A DNA stretch of 64,000 nt from positions 26,869-90,868 of the IMG/VR virus record IMGVR_UViG_3300024348_000017. One strand, given 5' to 3'. This stretch comes from a virus. The notes under the pieces are model-generated. The model worked only from the letters and a program-made list of their open reading frames with translations, made no database searches and was not told the DNA's origin. Positions within the stretch are counted from its first letter, which is position 1. Every line of letters begins with the position of its first letter. The position numbers and the translations under genes are program-made. This document shows positions 26,659 to 56,031 of this stretch, piece after piece.

Positions 26659-27312
26659 TTATTTTTCTCCTAATAGTTTAGTGACTAATTTATCACAACC
26701 TTTCTTAATAGCGTTACTAAGACTTGTTTGATTGAATTTACCACCCTCATCTACTATAAGAGTCGACATAGAGATTTCAGATGATGATTCTTCAACTAAA
26801 ACCTCTTTTTCTTTGATACCATCTTTGTATAAAATACCTTTTAAACGAATTACAACTTCTTGTTCGTTTTTATGAAACACAGATACGTTCTTTTTTGTAG
26901 TTAGAACGTCTAGATAAACAATTTCAACACGTAATTTATTCTCAGCATCTGGGGATAAATCATATCCCTTTTCCTGAATATATTCTTCTAAAATATTTTT
27001 AACACCGAATTCTAAATTGCGGTTACCTGCTAATTTACCAATAACAACTTTATTAGTAACTTTCTCAACATAAATATGTTCAGATGCATTATACCAAATA
27101 TTACCTGGGCTATTTTTAAAAGTACCATCGAATCTCCATGAAAATTCATTGGCTAAATGTTGCATATATTCTTCTTTTCCAGAGAATTGAAGAACTACGA
27201 AGAAAATTTGTGTAATTAATGCAAGACCTATAAATAATCCTACACCTAATAAGAATAATTGAAATAATCGGTCGCGTAGACTGATGGCCAGACTGATAGC
27301 TTTTTGCTTCAT
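26659..27312 (-). CDS. Membrane-anchored exported protein related to the CsgG-like protein
   Basis: 217 residues. A basic N-terminus (KQKAISLAISLRDR) and one membrane helix (about 16-38, LFQLFLLGVGLFIGLALI) anchor a C-terminal soluble domain. The last 60 residues (TLIVDEGGKFNQTSLSNAIK, then KLVTKLLGEK) echo the end of the protein at 19070-19786. It heads the exported-protein operon and is preceded by a terminator and a TATATTC box. It could be an inner-membrane partner of the CsgG-like protein. Confidence 0.55.
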   Translation of the reverse strand: MKQKAISLAISLRDRLFQLFLLGVGLFIGLALITQIFFVVLQFSGKEEYMQHLANEFSWRFDGTFKNSPGNIWYNASEHIYVEKVTNKVVIGKLAGNRNLEFGVKNILEEYIQEKGYDLSPDAENKLRVEIVYLDVLTTKKNVSVFHKNEQEVVIRLKGILYKDGIKEKEVLVEESSSEISMSTLIVDEGGKFNQTSLSNAIKKGCDKLVTKLLGEK

Positions 27313-27352: not shown

Positions 27353-27377
27353 GAAAGCAACCATTTCTGGTTGCTTC
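27353..27377 (-). terminator. Rho-independent terminator after the tmRNA
   Basis: GAAGCAACC pairs with GGTTGCTTTC around a six-base loop, followed by TTTTGC. It lies about 50 bases downstream of the tmRNA 3' end and upstream of the exported-protein operon. Confidence 0.75.
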
Positions 27378-27429
27378 GTAAAAGGCCCACTCTGAGCGCC
27401 CTGATCGCGGGAAGGGGAATGGACTCTTG

Positions 27430-27800
27430 TGGAGATGACGAGAGTCGAACTCGTGTCTCAATAATGAACAATAATACCAACGTCTCACACGCTTAGCTCA
27501 CTGATTAACCCCAGTGCATGAGGTATAGGGCCACAAGTTTTTGGTCTTAGTGACATCCACCACCTAGTTTTAATCTAAACTAAGAAAATCTAGCTTGTAA
27601 CTTCTGTTCCTAGGATGTTACACCCGACGCTATTTAAGCCGCTAATGCGTACTCGTTCGCACCTACGAAAGACATCATATCTTCGAAGGTCATAGTAGAT
27701 AATTCTACAGTTATTGTTTCGCAAGGTTTTAAGGACTTATCTTACTTTGTCCGCGTGTGGTACTACCTTCAGATTACTGATCAAATACCGGTACATCCCC
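27430..27800 (-). ncRNA. ssrA: Transfer-messenger RNA (tmRNA)
   Basis: The 5' end GGGGATG pairs with 3' CATCTCC to form a tRNA-like acceptor, and a T-arm (ACGAG TTCGACT CTCGT) precedes the 3' strand. An internal tag frame at 27634-27660 reads ANEYALAA then TAA, close to the canonical ANDENYALAA tag, with TAGGT just before the first Ala codon where E. coli has TAGTC. Length is about 371 nt, normal for tmRNA. CCA is not encoded. tmRNA rescues stalled ribosomes and tags products for proteolysis; phage copies are uncommon. It overlaps the 3' end of the gene at 27774. Confidence 0.88.
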
Positions 27801-28100
27801 ATGTTTTTTTGACTTTTTGTCTAATATTTTCTTCACTTCAGCACATAACTCATATTCCTCAATTTTAATTAAGTCATCTAAGCAATTGCTTAATAGTTCA
27901 ATATACTGCGATTTTTCAATATTAAATATCATACCACTTGTATCCTTGAATGTGATATCAAATATATCAATGCCGTCTTTATTTCGTTTATATGCGCTAA
28001 GTACACATTTAACCATTTTAAGAATCAATTCACTGTCCCTTTCCTTCATCATTTGAAGGAACTCACGTTGATCCTTTAACATTAAACAGTGGCATGCCAT
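27774..28100 (-). CDS. Hypothetical phage protein overlapping the tmRNA
   Basis: 108 residues starting MACHCLMLKDQREFLQMM, helical, with an ECA-VKKIL-KK C-terminal helix reminiscent of the protein at 31306-31614 (YDKCIEIRDLIKQ). The frame extends to 28121, but the ATG at 28098-28100 has the TTATGG leader and is preferred. Its last eight codons and stop lie inside the 5' end of the tmRNA. Confidence 0.65.
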   Translation of the reverse strand: MACHCLMLKDQREFLQMMKERDSELILKMVKCVLSAYKRNKDGIDIFDITFKDTSGMIFNIEKSQYIELLSNCLDDLIKIEEYELCAEVKKILDKKSKKHGDVPVFDQ

Positions 28101-28114
28101 AACGATAAATATTA

Positions 28115-28223
28115 AATACACTGTCTGTACTGTTAAACTGTCTCAATACTACCTTTATCCGTAGTAGAGGTGCTTTATTCATTCTTAGCGTCTGTTCAGT
28201 CCTCCTTTCGGAGCAGTGTATTT
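28115..28223 (-). ncRNA. Structured RNA in the tRNA cluster
   Basis: Bases 28115-28124 and 28214-28223 form a perfect 10-bp inverted repeat (AAATACACTG / CAGTGTATTT) that would close a 109-nt domain. Inside lie a CTCC-GAAA-GGAG hairpin, a TACTAC/GTAGTA hairpin and an ACTGTTAAACTGT hairpin. The branched fold next to tRNA genes recalls the stable RNAs C and D of T4, but no sequence relation is claimed. Confidence 0.5.
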
Positions 28224-32003: not shown

Positions 32004-32546
32004 TTATTCAAGGATCTCATCTACTAAGCCATATCTCTGTGCTACTTTAACATCGAAATACCATTCAGCTTGTTTATCCCTGTGTGGTTTTAATATCTTA
32101 TCTGTGAACTTTGTTTTAGACATAAAGTAAGCATCACACACTTTATCAATACGCACACACTCAGCTAATTCTTGTTTATGAAATGCTACTTTACCTTCAA
32201 CTTCATAATTACCCTCGTGGTACATGAATGTAGCATATTTACTAGCCTGTCTAACATGGCCCGCCGAGAATACTACTAACCCCATTGACATTGCATGACC
32301 ATGACATATTGTGTGGATTGGAGTCTGCGAAGAATCAATTACATCAATTAAAGCCATCCCATTATATATCTCTCCTCCAGGTGAGTTGATAATGAGTTTT
32401 ATTGGGTCTACTATTTGCTTTTTAGCGTCCTCAGCATTAATCTCATATATATCCTGTATGATTTCGTTAACTGTTAGACCATCAATGTATCCTAATGTTA
32501 TAACTCGACTTAACGGGTCTAATTTGGAACGACGCTCTCTTGCCAT
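32004..32546 (-). CDS. clpP: ClpP-family serine protease
   Basis: 180 residues, close to the ClpP length. The nucleophile loop GHAMSMGL (Ser), the helix that follows, and MYHEG (His) match the S14 catalytic order; the third acid residue lies near KILKPHRDKQAEWYF. NSPGGEIYNGMALIDVI is the substrate-groove strand. Phage ClpP-like proteins often act in capsid maturation, but here no capsid gene is adjacent, so a role with host ClpX or in takeover cannot be excluded. The leader contains a TATATTTAT element 22 bases upstream. Confidence 0.85.
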   Translation of the reverse strand: MARERRSKLDPLSRVITLGYIDGLTVNEIIQDIYEINAEDAKKQIVDPIKLIINSPGGEIYNGMALIDVIDSSQTPIHTICHGHAMSMGLVVFSAGHVRQASKYATFMYHEGNYEVEGKVAFHKQELAECVRIDKVCDAYFMSKTKFTDKILKPHRDKQAEWYFDVKVAQRYGLVDEILE

Positions 32547-43709: not shown

Positions 43710-45332
43710 CTACATACCTAACCCTGCCATACCACCCATATCATCCTTCTTCTCATCTGGTTTTTCATTAATAACACATTCAGTCATTAATAATGTAATG
43801 GCGGCTGCGGCTGCGTTTTCAAGTGCGCAACGTACCACCTTAGTAGGATCAATAATACCTGATTCAAATGCATCTACCATTTCTCCACTATTAATATTAG
43901 GAACAGATTTTGAATCTGTAACTTTTAATAATTTAAGATACCACTCACTATATGATTCACCAGCATTAGATAAAATTTGTTTAAGTGGAGTATTGCACGA
44001 TTGGAATACTATTTGTTTACCTTTACCAAAATCGGTTTTATCACGATTAGTAATAGAGAACTTAGCATCAACTAAAGCCATACCAGCACCTGGAACGATA
44101 CCTTCTTCTAAAGCCGCTTTTGTAGCTTGTAAAGCATCATCAATACGATCTTTTTTCTCATCAATCTCAATTTCATTACCACCACCAACATTGATAATAG
44201 CAACACCACCAACCATTTTACCTAAACGCTCTTGATATTTTTCAATTTCATAAGGTGTGGTATCTGGTTTATCCATCTGAGCTTTAATATTTAAAATACG
44301 CTCTTCAATTTTATCAATATTACCTTTACCATCAACAATTGTAGTTACATCTTTACTAACAGTAACTACTCTAGATTTACCTAACCAGGTAATATCTAAT
44401 TTTGCTAATGTCATTCCTTTATCATTTGAAACAACTGTTCCTCCTGTTAAAGTAGCAATATCTTCCAAAATTGCTGTTCTACGATCTCCAAAGTCAGGTG
44501 CTTTAACAGCACATACTTGTAATACACCACGTGCTTTATTCATTACTAATGTCGCTAACGCTTCACCATCAATGTCTTCAGCAATAATTAAAAGAGATTT
44601 ACTCTCAGTAGAAACACGTTCAAGCAATGGAAGTAAATCCTTAACTGCACTAATACGTTTATCATAAATTAAAATATAGGGTTCATTTAATGTAACTTGC
44701 ATTGTGTTGTTATCGGTTACAAAGTAAGGAGATTTATAACCTCTATCAAATTGCATACCTTCTACAACCTCTAATGTTGTTTCACCTGTACGAGATTTCT
44801 CTACAGTAACAACACCATCTCTACCTACTTTATCAATAGCGGTAGCTACAATATTACCAATTTCTTCATCACCATTAGCTGACAATGTAGCTACTTGTTT
44901 AATTTGTGCCTCATCTGTAATGTCTACAGATATTGCTTTTAATTCAGCTACTACTTCTTTAACAGCAGCTTCAATACCACGTTTTACTTGAGTAGCATTT
45001 GTTGATGCATACGCTGTAGCTTGTAGTGCTTGAGATGCAATCGAGTGAGCCAATACAGTAGATGTTGTTGTACCATCACCTGCTTGATCAACTGTCTTTG
45101 ATGCTGCTTGCTTAATAACAGTAGCAGCCATGTTTTCGATAGGATCTTCTAATGTAATTGATTTAGCTACAGTCACACCATCTTTAGTTGATGATACTTG
45201 ACCATACTCTCTCTCAATTAACACGTTACGTCCGAAAGGACCCATTGTTGTTGCTACGGCTTTGTAGACTTTGTCTACACCCGCCTGTAATTTTTCTTTT
45301 GCTTCGCGATCGAAACTGATTATTTTACTCAT
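43710..45332 (-). CDS. groL: Chaperonin GroEL
   Basis: 540 residues, full length. ATP-site motifs are intact: the DGTTTSTVLA loop near residue 87, GGVAIINVGG, and the second catalytic Asp in DRIDDALQATKAA. The tail (MGGMAGLGM) is of the GGM type. The apical and equatorial sequence looks typical of bacteria, which suggests transfer from a host. Expected to form a 14-mer that folds phage proteins with the co-encoded GroES. Stop and start overlap groES by eight bases. Confidence 0.97.
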   Translation of the reverse strand: MSKIISFDREAKEKLQAGVDKVYKAVATTMGPFGRNVLIEREYGQVSSTKDGVTVAKSITLEDPIENMAATVIKQAASKTVDQAGDGTTTSTVLAHSIASQALQATAYASTNATQVKRGIEAAVKEVVAELKAISVDITDEAQIKQVATLSANGDEEIGNIVATAIDKVGRDGVVTVEKSRTGETTLEVVEGMQFDRGYKSPYFVTDNNTMQVTLNEPYILIYDKRISAVKDLLPLLERVSTESKSLLIIAEDIDGEALATLVMNKARGVLQVCAVKAPDFGDRRTAILEDIATLTGGTVVSNDKGMTLAKLDITWLGKSRVVTVSKDVTTIVDGKGNIDKIEERILNIKAQMDKPDTTPYEIEKYQERLGKMVGGVAIINVGGGNEIEIDEKKDRIDDALQATKAALEEGIVPGAGMALVDAKFSITNRDKTDFGKGKQIVFQSCNTPLKQILSNAGESYSEWYLKLLKVTDSKSVPNINSGEMVDAFESGIIDPTKVVRCALENAAAAAITLLMTECVINEKPDEKKDDMGGMAGLGM

Positions 45333-45685: not shown

Positions 45686-46123
45686 TTATTTTTTCTTAGG
45701 CACTAAGATTTGTATTTTCTTTGGTGCTCTTTCTTCTGAAACTGGAATGTCAATAATTAACAATCCTTTATCCATCGTGGCTGTTAAGCTAGTTAAATCA
45801 AATTTAGCTGCTACTTTCCAAGCCAAGTCAAAGGAACGACGTGCTATACCCTTTTGGATATAATTACGTTCTTCTTCTACTGTCTTTCTGTCGTGTGTGA
45901 TTCTAAGTGTATCTCCTTCTACTAGGATATCTAGGTCCTCTTGATTGAGACCTACCACTGCTAATTCAAATCGTAACCCGTTGTTTTCGGTTTCGTAAAT
46001 ATCAACTGGGTAGTTGATTTTGTTTTCAATTGTGTTGAATGGGGAATTTACATCTAAAAAATTCTTCCAAACAATGTCGAATGGGTCCATTGCCCAATGT
46101 TGTAATTGTGTCATTTTGTTCAC
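45686..46123 (-). CDS. Small heat-shock protein (Hsp20 family)
   Basis: 145 residues. The alpha-crystallin domain (about 35-140) includes FELAVVGLNQEDLDILVEGD and the conserved A-x-x-x-G-L-L motif (ATMDKGLLIIDIP), ending with KKIQILVPKKK. It would hold unfolded proteins for GroEL. Flanked by the two operator palindromes. Confidence 0.9.
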   Translation of the reverse strand: MNKMTQLQHWAMDPFDIVWKNFLDVNSPFNTIENKINYPVDIYETENNGLRFELAVVGLNQEDLDILVEGDTLRITHDRKTVEEERNYIQKGIARRSFDLAWKVAAKFDLTSLTATMDKGLLIIDIPVSEERAPKKIQILVPKKK

Positions 46124-51674: not shown

Positions 51675-52307
51675 TTAGAATTTTGTTCCGTTTACTTCGA
51701 TCGCGTGTAAGAATTCTTCACGAATTAAATTTTCTTTTTCCATAAATACGCCACTGAATTTGTTTGTAGTCATTACAGAGCCATGTTTAATACCTCTATG
51801 AGAGCAACATGTATGCTTACAAGCAATACTAACTGCTACTGAATTACATATCATTTTATCAGCAATATAATTATGAATTTGTGTTGTTAACGATTCTTGC
51901 ATTTGTGGTCTACGAGAGAACCATTCTACAATTCTATTTAATTTACTCAAACCAATAACATTTTCAGCAGGAACATATGCTACTGTAGCGAATCCTGTAA
52001 ATGCTAAGTTATGGTGAGCACACATACTAACGATAGGAATACCTGATTGAATTACTAATCCATCATATCCTTCATCGTTAGGAAATACAGTCATATTTGG
52101 TTCATTACTGATTGATCCTACGATTAAATCTTTAAGCCATGCCTTCGCGACACGACGAGGAGTATTTACTGTTTGTCTATCTGCTGTATAATCAAATCCA
52201 ACTGCATTAAGGAAATGTCCATATGCTACTGTTGCTTGATCAATCATTTGCTCAATTTCTTCTGGTGTACGAGCTAAACTACCATTTGATTTGTTTAATA
52301 ATTCCAT
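51675..52307 (-). CDS. folE: GTP cyclohydrolase I
   Basis: 210 residues. The active site and zinc ligands occur in order: CAHHNLAFTGFA (Cys, His), GLSKLNRIVEWFSRRPQ, and SIACKHTCCSHRGIKHG (His and Cys). It converts GTP to dihydroneopterin triphosphate, the first step of 7-deazaguanine (and folate) synthesis. With QueD, QueE and QueC in the same gene run, the 7-deazaguanine role is favoured. Confidence 0.93.
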   Translation of the reverse strand: MELLNKSNGSLARTPEEIEQMIDQATVAYGHFLNAVGFDYTADRQTVNTPRRVAKAWLKDLIVGSISNEPNMTVFPNDEGYDGLVIQSGIPIVSMCAHHNLAFTGFATVAYVPAENVIGLSKLNRIVEWFSRRPQMQESLTTQIHNYIADKMICNSVAVSIACKHTCCSHRGIKHGSVMTTNKFSGVFMEKENLIREEFLHAIEVNGTKF

Positions 52308-54362: not shown

Positions 54363-55238
54363 TTACGATTTATGTGAATCTAATACTGATTGTACTGATT
54401 CTTTTACTTCTTCCCATTTCACAGTGCGGATACCACCCTCTGGTAATTGTTCACCATACTGTACAGGATCGGGACGACCTAGTTTAATAAATGCTTCTAC
54501 ACGTTCAACTGATGCTGCTGATTTATAATCAGATAACCAGATGTCATTTGATAATTTGATTGGCTTGTAAGATGTGTTTGTGCGTTTATACACTTCATTA
54601 AAATCTAATCTTAAATCAAAACATGCTTTTTCACCATCTTTTAAAATACCGAATTTATCAGTATCAAGGTATGGAGTGTAGACTTCTACTAATTCAGAAT
54701 CCCAATTTCCAATCTTAAATGCTTCAAAATCAGCATCTCTAAATTCTTGTCTACAATCAGGATAAATAGCGTGGTCACCTGCATGGATTCCCATCGCAAT
54801 AGCACATGTTTGTTTTTCTCCTTTAGTAGCGATTGATAATGCTGCTGCTTGAATTAATGAACTAAATATTTTGTTTCTGTTAGGTACAACTGTTTCTTTC
54901 ATGTTGTCCTGTTCATAATGTCCTTCAGGAACATCTTGTCCACCTTCTACTAAAGCGGAATTTAGTAATTGTGATAAGCCATCTAATTTAATAATTTGAT
55001 GTTTTACTAATGGAAAATTTTTCCCAGTTACTGTAATTGTTCCTAATTGATCTTGTTCTGCTTTTTGAGAACATCCATTTAGATACTCTACTAATTCAGT
55101 AGCACGCTCTAATTCAATTTTGTGTTTCTGACCATAGTCAAATCCTAATGCTGTTACTTCATAGCCGTTAGCTAATAGGTGTAACAATAATGAACTACTG
55201 TCCATTCCACCTGATAATGATAAAACTGCTTTTTTCAT
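54363..55238 (-). CDS. queC: 7-cyano-7-deazaguanine synthase (QueC) lacking zinc cysteines
   Basis: 291 residues. The PP-loop is LSLSGGMDSSSLL, and YPDCRQEFRDADF is QueC-like. It makes preQ0 from 7-carboxy-7-deazaguanine. The usual C-terminal zinc set (SCY, then CGxCxSC) appears as NTSYKPI and then NDIWLSDYKSA, with no cysteine, although the following ERVEAFIKLGRPDP matches the family. The start at 55236-55238 (MKKAVLS) is chosen over a frame open to 55295. Confidence 0.88.
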   Translation of the reverse strand: MKKAVLSLSGGMDSSSLLLHLLANGYEVTALGFDYGQKHKIELERATELVEYLNGCSQKAEQDQLGTITVTGKNFPLVKHQIIKLDGLSQLLNSALVEGGQDVPEGHYEQDNMKETVVPNRNKIFSSLIQAAALSIATKGEKQTCAIAMGIHAGDHAIYPDCRQEFRDADFEAFKIGNWDSELVEVYTPYLDTDKFGILKDGEKACFDLRLDFNEVYKRTNTSYKPIKLSNDIWLSDYKSAASVERVEAFIKLGRPDPVQYGEQLPEGGIRTVKWEEVKESVQSVLDSHKS

Positions 55239-55245
55239 AACTTTA

Positions 55246-56031
55246 TTATTTAATAAATGATTTAAATCTGTTGACATTGAATATAATATCTTCAAGTTGA
55301 CCGCTCAAGTCTTTTTCAAAATAATGTTCAAGTTTTTCTTTAGGTTTCCATGTTAATCCACTATCACTATATCTTTTACCTTCTGCTCCAACTAAAATAG
55401 GATTAGACGTATCCACTGATTTAACAAATTTCCAGTCACTGTACGACATAAATTCTTGTGGTAATGAACATCCTAACAAATGGTGGTAATGGCTTTTTCT
55501 AATAGTACCTGATTGTACCAGGCGTCTAATAAATTCCATTCTACCATACATTGATGCTTTCAAATGATCCATTCCTGTATATTCATTCTGATAGGCTATA
55601 CTGGAGTGATTGAATGCGATATGTTCGTATCCTAAGTCTATTAATGTTTGATATGTTGTAATTAATTCACCCATATCATTGCCTTGACATACTGCCATTA
55701 AATTAACCCCTTCAGGTAAATTTTCTTTGAAATTAATCATCCAGCTTTTAGCATTCACTAATGTTGTATTAGAATCATTCCAAGCATCGGGTACGATGAA
55801 TATGTTAGGGCGAACTAGATTGATTTTTTCTAATAAGTCTTCAGTTGTATGCAGCACACCCTCAAATAAACCATTATCCATGATAATGAAACGTTTATCT
55901 AAACGTGATTTTTGAAAGAATATTTTATATTGGTCATACTGATCGATTAAGTGGGGTAGACAATAATCATAATTATTCCATTTATACGCATTGTGCATTA
56001 GTGCTAAAGGCAACTCATGGCTTACTTTCAT
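55246..56031 (-). CDS. DpdA-like 7-deazaguanine DNA transglycosylase
   Basis: 261 residues. Segments IIMDNGLFEGV, FIVPDAWND, YEHIAFNHSS and YHHLLGCSLPQEFMSY then VKSVDTSNP resemble the TGT/DpdA barrel (catalytic Asp, LLG..PQE, S-DTSNP). Phage DpdA proteins exchange guanine in DNA for a 7-deazaguanine. Location between queC and queD supports the role. Tempered by the low overall similarity that can be judged by eye. Confidence 0.7.
   Translation of the reverse strand: MKVSHELPLALMHNAYKWNNYDYCLPHLIDQYDQYKIFFQKSRLDKRFIIMDNGLFEGVLHTTEDLLEKINLVRPNIFIVPDAWNDSNTTLVNAKSWMINFKENLPEGVNLMAVCQGNDMGELITTYQTLIDLGYEHIAFNHSSIAYQNEYTGMDHLKASMYGRMEFIRRLVQSGTIRKSHYHHLLGCSLPQEFMSYSDWKFVKSVDTSNPILVGAEGKRYSDSGLTWKPKEKLEHYFEKDLSGQLEDIIFNVNRFKSFIK

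Follow-up and report, generated by a model that had tools for sequence, protein, structure and literature searches.

A phage-encoded one-piece tmRNA with a predicted 24-residue tag and a conserved, phage-specific leader

Introduction

The tags encoded by tmRNAs are usually regarded as short peptides whose function resides in the C-terminal residues. The tmRNA gene analyzed here raises the question what a phage may gain from placing a long tag of its own on the proteins of stalled ribosomes. The gene lies in a stretch of 64,000 nucleotides, in the following called the window, which comprises positions 26869–90868 of a 90,868-base IMG/VR virus record of an uncultivated phage. An earlier note on this DNA had described a tmRNA with the short tag ANEYALAA, proposed that tagged peptides may be directed to a chosen protease and called phage tmRNAs rare. 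Rarity holds only in a relative sense, given the count of tmRNAs in 402 of 18,146 phage genomes reported in PMC9004378. Here we describe the gene, its tag reading frame and the family of phage tmRNAs to which it belongs.

Results

The window contains a one-piece tmRNA gene

ARAGORN identified a one-piece, ssrA-like tmRNA gene on the minus strand at 27429–27800, with the 5' end at 27800 and the 3' end at 27429. The covariance model RF00023 of Rfam matched positions 27427–27800 over its full length (1–374 of 374) with 71.6 bits (E 7.3e-26), compared to a curated cut-off of 47 bits, so that the complete tmRNA with acceptor stem and T-arm postulated before was borne out by both programs. The 5' half of the tRNA-like domain (27773–27800, minus strand; ARAGORN domain limits) comprises the acceptor strand GGGGAUG with the G3 of the alanine identity pair G3-U70, and the 3' half (27429–27465, minus strand; ARAGORN and RF00023) comprises the T-arm and the acceptor strand CAUCUCC. 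This pair is present in the acceptor stem of the window tmRNA, and neither column varies among the 59 aligned members of the family described below. At the 3' end, the discriminator A is followed by CAA and CCA is not encoded; 22 of the 59 family representatives have a CCA end within the ARAGORN limits. Downstream of the tag, the region from PK2 to PK4 is spanned by the full-length RF00023 match with low posterior values, and the 3' part of the tmRNA differs in length among the members.

ARAGORN also called tRNA genes for Leu, Ser, Thr, Met and Glu, five in all, upstream of the tmRNA on the same strand. About 50 nt downstream of its 3' end, a terminator-like hairpin is found at 27354–27377 (minus strand), which is weak evidence by itself because three such hairpins were found in the region versus 1.9 expected in shuffled sequences. 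An open frame of 115 amino acids (27774–28121, minus strand) overlaps the first 27 nt of the tmRNA; if this frame is a gene, the 5' end of the tmRNA must be cut from a longer transcript. Sequence and structure both give good support for the assignment of this locus as a ribosome-rescue tmRNA encoded by the phage.

Comparative evidence places the resume codon 16 codons upstream of the annotated tag

ARAGORN starts the tag of the window tmRNA at a GCG codon (tmRNA position 141), 60 nt downstream of the pseudoknot PK1, and thus reports ANEYALAA followed by a stop (27634–27660, minus strand). Further upstream, the same frame contains no stop as far as GUA at 27706–27708 (tmRNA position 93), 16 codons earlier. 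This GUA is located 12 nt past PK1 and is directly preceded by CAAUAACU. PK1 itself (27721–27752, minus strand) was found by script with the stems S1 GGAC/GUCC and S2 GUAAG/CUUGC, and the 12-nt spacer between PK1 and the GUA, GAAACAAUAACU (27709–27720, minus strand; script), has U at position -5 and A at position -4. PK1 and a canonical resume context, both relevant to the earlier assignment, are present. The geometry matches that of E. coli tmRNA in PK1 distance and in U-5/A-4: according to the description in PMC2481249, the E. coli resume codon lies 12 nt past PK1, behind the 11-nt spacer AAAAAAUAGUC with U85/A86 at -5/-4. From GUA to UAA, the frame (27634–27708, minus strand) encodes VELSTMTFEDMMSFVGANEYALAA, 24 residues, and consists of the leader VELSTMTFEDMMSFVG (27661–27708, minus strand), which is specific to phages and is not part of the ARAGORN call in the window, and the C-terminal part ANEYALAA.

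Among the relatives of the window tmRNA, PK1 was detected upstream of the tag in 57 of 59 cluster representatives with a mean score of 11.1 versus 4.9 in shuffled sequences, and the observed median was reached by 5% of the shuffles. The stems covary among the members (AGGCG/CGCCU, AGACA/UGUCU, GGAC/GUCC and others). In 97 of 99 members, a codon beginning with G (GAC in 67, GCA in 21 and GUA in 9) directly follows (U/C)AANN. It precedes the Glu of the leader by one whole codon in 61, by two in 25 and by three in 11 of these members. In length, the resume site varies by whole codons, and the tags of the 97 members have 23–26 residues; the two members that do not fit the rule are L164 and L186. 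ARAGORN itself reports the long tag in most relatives, for example DVELSTMTFEDAMAFVGADYAVAA or DEMSTMTFDSMMEFIGASEYAYAA.

Resumption at GCG to yield the eight-residue tag, with the upstream sequence remaining untranslated, would agree with the ARAGORN report for the window, and the five bases before GCG (UAGGU) also include U-5 and A-4, so that the context alone permits internal resumption. However, the distance of 60 nt to PK1 compares to 11–12 nt, the in-frame evolution of the 16 upstream codons is that of coding sequence (see below), their length changes by whole codons, and the long frame is called in most relatives, which together make the short tag highly improbable. Because the comparative evidence places the resume codon 16 codons before GCG, we read the tag as the full 24-residue sequence. 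On these comparative grounds, the predicted tag is about 24 residues long with resumption at GUA, and the eight-residue tag, which the earlier note had adopted, is an annotation artefact that reflects the start point chosen by ARAGORN within a coding frame that begins at a canonical site. As ARAGORN truncates the long tags in part of the family, tag catalogues built on this program will under-report them.

The window tag ends in ANEYALAA, a degron-like end of the type hydrophobic-Ala-Ala, and most members end in YA(L/V/Y/I)AA. In four members (L091, L098, L054 and L097), ADEATFA replaces the A-(L/V/Y)-A-A that is usual at the tag end, possibly representing a different degron.

The leader occurs in a wide family of phage tmRNAs

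We found at least 99 distinct ARAGORN-called tmRNAs with the leader in IMG/VR, which form at least 59 clusters at 90% identity. These numbers, obtained after removal of identical sequences, are a lower bound for a larger family; two scans for the leader codons yielded at least 120 stretches and 69 stretches, respectively. Across all loci examined, with L001 excluded because it duplicates the window, the leader motif was matched at least 187 times, 127 times inside and 60 times outside of ARAGORN-called tmRNAs. Four of the outside matches are ordinary reading frames (L177, L183, L034 and L069), and the remainder resembled, as judged by eye, tmRNAs that were missed by ARAGORN or cut at the end of the stretch. 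All 60 were excluded from the statistics except L005 and L014, which were used in set B. One of the outside matches, L182 (reverse strand near 1062), has no ARAGORN tmRNA call and a frameshifted tag that reads ELSTMTFDDLMAFVGRLIK and then stops.

Two scans with patterns that do not touch the leader recovered the same family. The scan for the C-terminal codons yielded 17 stretches, consisting of 12 relatives, four permuted tmRNAs and one stretch without tmRNA, and the scan that targeted conserved sequence beyond the stop codon, on its 3' side, yielded 13 stretches; the leader was present in 12 of 12 relatives from the former and 13 of 13 from the latter. The four permuted tmRNAs, from viral contigs (L006, L012, L013 and L016), are two-piece molecules with the tag ANANDYALAA and without the family leader.

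Relatives of the family B DNA polymerase of the window were found in 35 records, 14 of which have a tmRNA over the cut-off, and many of the other 21 are short fragments. All 14 tmRNAs from records chosen by polymerase contain the leader, most of these records having already been included in the leader scans. Conversely, the polymerase was found in 21 of 31 large contigs with a family tmRNA, including that of the window; besides the window's own, 19 matches had 37–82% identity and one was a weak partial match at 28%. Because the leader is kept across polymerases as low as 37% identical, much of the divergence among the polymerases would be younger than the leader, provided that the tmRNA has not moved between phages. 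No gene was a universal neighbour of the tmRNA, the commonest cluster being present near it in 22 of 59 representatives.

The leader evolves as coding sequence and additionally contains a hairpin

Codons 9–16 were selected by none of the leader patterns. Their pN/pS was 0.29 in the tag frame versus 1.03 and 1.40 in the other frames (51 distinct segments; set A, from which members with AMAWMN or ALVSN were excluded), and nine distinct sequences recovered with patterns outside of the leader had a pN/pS over 16 codons of 0.32 versus 2.56 and 1.04. When substitutions were counted on a tree of the remaining tmRNA sequence, codon positions 1/2/3 had changed 54/19/89 times in codons 9–16 and 6/0/55 times in codons 1–8, where only third positions are informative, the amino acids being fixed by the search patterns in most loci. 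Control regions gave 122/131/129 on the 5' side and 91/152/159 on the 3' side, the latter not flat but without the near-absence of second-position changes. Third positions vary while the amino acids remain the same or similar at codons 3, 4, 8 and 12. As judged from these substitution patterns, the leader is evolving as coding sequence under purifying selection.

Covariation also pointed to a hairpin within the tag coding sequence (27662–27689, minus strand), in which CCU.CGA pairs with UCG.AGG. Counted from the Glu of the leader, base 3 of codon 7 covaries with base 1 of codon 14, with TTC+G in 72 and TTT+A in 21 of the 99 members and TTC+ATG (4) and TTT+G (2) as exceptions. The helix is paired in 89.0% of the cells versus 85.8% in shuffles and 22.9–55.4% when slid, with 11 cells changed on both sides. 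Since the changes are silent in codon 7, where Phe is kept, and conservative in codon 14, where Val becomes Ile, peptide and hairpin are kept together.

Both the covariation and the pairing frequencies are what would be expected if the leader, although translated, were conserved mainly as an RNA hairpin needed by the tmRNA and not as a functional peptide. We regard this as unlikely in view of the pN/pS of 0.29 and of the third positions outside of the stem, which vary while the amino acids hold; moreover, a hairpin alone cannot account for the frame-keeping insertions and deletions or for the conservation of S-T-M-T-F outside of the stem. The hairpin accounts for part, but not all, of the leader conservation, and selection on the peptide remains our preferred explanation.

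The leader was not found in bacterial tmRNAs or in the phage records searched

In 84,980 bacterial and archaeal genomes, the first leader pattern had no match and a broader pattern had four, none of them in an ARAGORN-called tmRNA. A bacterial source of the leader was rejected on this basis. When 50,697 phage records (INPHARED) were searched by tblastn with a family tag of 23 residues, no match was obtained, and blastn of the window tmRNA against the same collection gave only short and weak matches. The leader strings were also absent from the literature searched. Among solved structures, nothing but 'Cake' proteins matched the tag, and these matches were weak, with a best E of 0.0032. Mimicry of the tag by phage proteins was considered and rejected: outside of tmRNAs, six-frame translation of 4.1 Mb (both strands counted) contained a single tag-like peptide in a frame broken by stops, and the window's record held no convincing match.

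The tags called by ARAGORN in Bacteroidota, 30 in 31 stretches (the best 30 of 118 genomes by score and one further), were all short, for example GENNYALAA, GEYNYALAA and DNNYSYRLAA. With GANEYALAA at its end, the phage tag resembles such a host tag placed behind a phage leader, which may indicate the origin of this end.

Partner proteins and host

None of the 31 large contigs with a family tmRNA, which may be fragments, contained SmpB. ClpP was detected in seven of them and AAA_2 over the cut-off in six; the four AAA_2 proteins that were read by eye are MoxR/CobS-like and not ClpX. A partnership of the tag with a phage ClpXP was rejected on the latter two counts, and a self-contained phage module of tmRNA, SmpB and ClpXP on all three. 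Direction of the tag to a phage protease, as suggested in the earlier note, is consequently not supported as a trait of the family. Because SmpB was found in 0 of 31 contigs, the tmRNA most likely uses host SmpB, and most likely host proteases as well.

The window does encode the ClpP-like protein mentioned in the same note (32004–32546, minus strand; Pfam E 5e-24). It keeps the Ser (GHAMSMG) and His (MYHEG) motifs, and in a match to solved ClpP the third triad position, which we take to be the catalytic Asp, aligns to Glu. A 178-aa relative in L274 shares the QAEWYF motif. The phage of the window itself may still pair its tag with its own ClpP.

By several window proteins, the closest cultured relative is Flavobacterium phage immuto (Immutovirus), with identities of 57.5% for GroEL, 53.9% for a DnaB-like helicase and 59.1% for a glycosyltransferase; Microcystis phage Mel-JY01 is also near. 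The relatedness to immuto suggests a Bacteroidota host. No tmRNA over the RF00023 cut-off was found in the immuto or Mel-JY01 records. Further genes of the window encode a GroEL-type chaperonin (43710–45332), Hsp20 (45686–46123), GTP cyclohydrolase I (51675–52307) and QueC (54363–55295), of which the latter two suggest a deazaguanine pathway.

Discussion

The phage very probably encodes a one-piece tmRNA that adds a 24-residue tag, relies on SmpB and a protease of the host, and carries a leader selected as a peptide. This reading is drawn from sequence comparison throughout. The tmRNA would be made from a transcript that probably also covers the tRNA cluster, charged by the host alanyl-tRNA synthetase through G3-U70 and delivered to stalled ribosomes by host SmpB. 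Translation would resume on the GUA past PK1, and the ribosome would append alanine and the encoded tag to the stalled chain. The C-terminus YALAA would then route the product to a host protease of the ClpXP type for degradation. For the leader of 15–16 residues, selection would act on the peptide, the most likely role of which is that of a docking segment for a host or phage factor.

More specifically, the leader, (V/D)E(L/M)STMTF(E/D)D-x-M-x-FVG, might act as a phage-specific address peptide that hands stalled chains to such a phage or host factor. We put this forward tentatively, as one possible function and not the expected one. If it were true, the factor could be an adaptor, a protease or a holdase, tagging would go beyond marking for the host protease, and the phage would rewrite the meaning of the ribosome-rescue tag. 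Whatever its function, this segment of about 15 residues has been maintained among phages with polymerase identities down to 37%, yet the genome scans found it in no bacterial tmRNA.

Titration of host SmpB by a decoy or inhibitor, the role suggested for the form of mycobacteriophage DS6A that consists only of the tRNA-like domain (TLD), would be in line with the lack of SmpB in the 31 contigs, and the TLD-only phage form is reported in PMC4131195 to resemble a tmRNA-inhibiting molecule. However, a decoy would not need a tag frame, let alone one with a degron-like end under purifying selection, and we consider an inhibitory role extremely unlikely. A tmRNA that tags stalled chains remains our favored interpretation.

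Long tags are found in Bxz1-group mycobacteriophages, and for this reason we do not claim tag length alone as new. Judged from the literature and sequence searches, the conserved leader and the wide family that shares it seem to be new.

Flavobacterium phage immuto, unlike the window, has no RF00023 match; it also has no match to the family B DNA polymerase of the window, and the gene annotated next to its groEL is that of a family A polymerase. Mycobacteriophages and phage G appear in earlier lists of phage tmRNAs (PMC4131195), descriptions of huge phages include some with both tmRNA and SmpB (PMC7162821), and Methylophilales phage Melnitz has a permuted two-piece tmRNA (PMC9004378). Like the tmRNAs of isolated phages (the Bxz1 group, phage G, Tomas and Melnitz), the window tmRNA is carried by a phage, often together with tRNAs in this group. 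It differs from those of Bacillus phage G (AKLNITNNELQVA) and Streptomyces phage Tomas (DNSNVAFALAA) in tag sequence and from that of Melnitz in being one-piece and not permuted. With bacterial one-piece tmRNA (SsrA, RF00023), it shares the tRNA-like domain with G3-U70, PK1, a resume codon beginning with G, the spacer of 11–12 nt with U-5/A-4 and the tag end hydrophobic-Ala-Ala. In contrast to bacterial SsrA, for which 10 amino acids is given as the commonest tag length in PMC11915505, the tags of this phage family comprise 23–26 residues.
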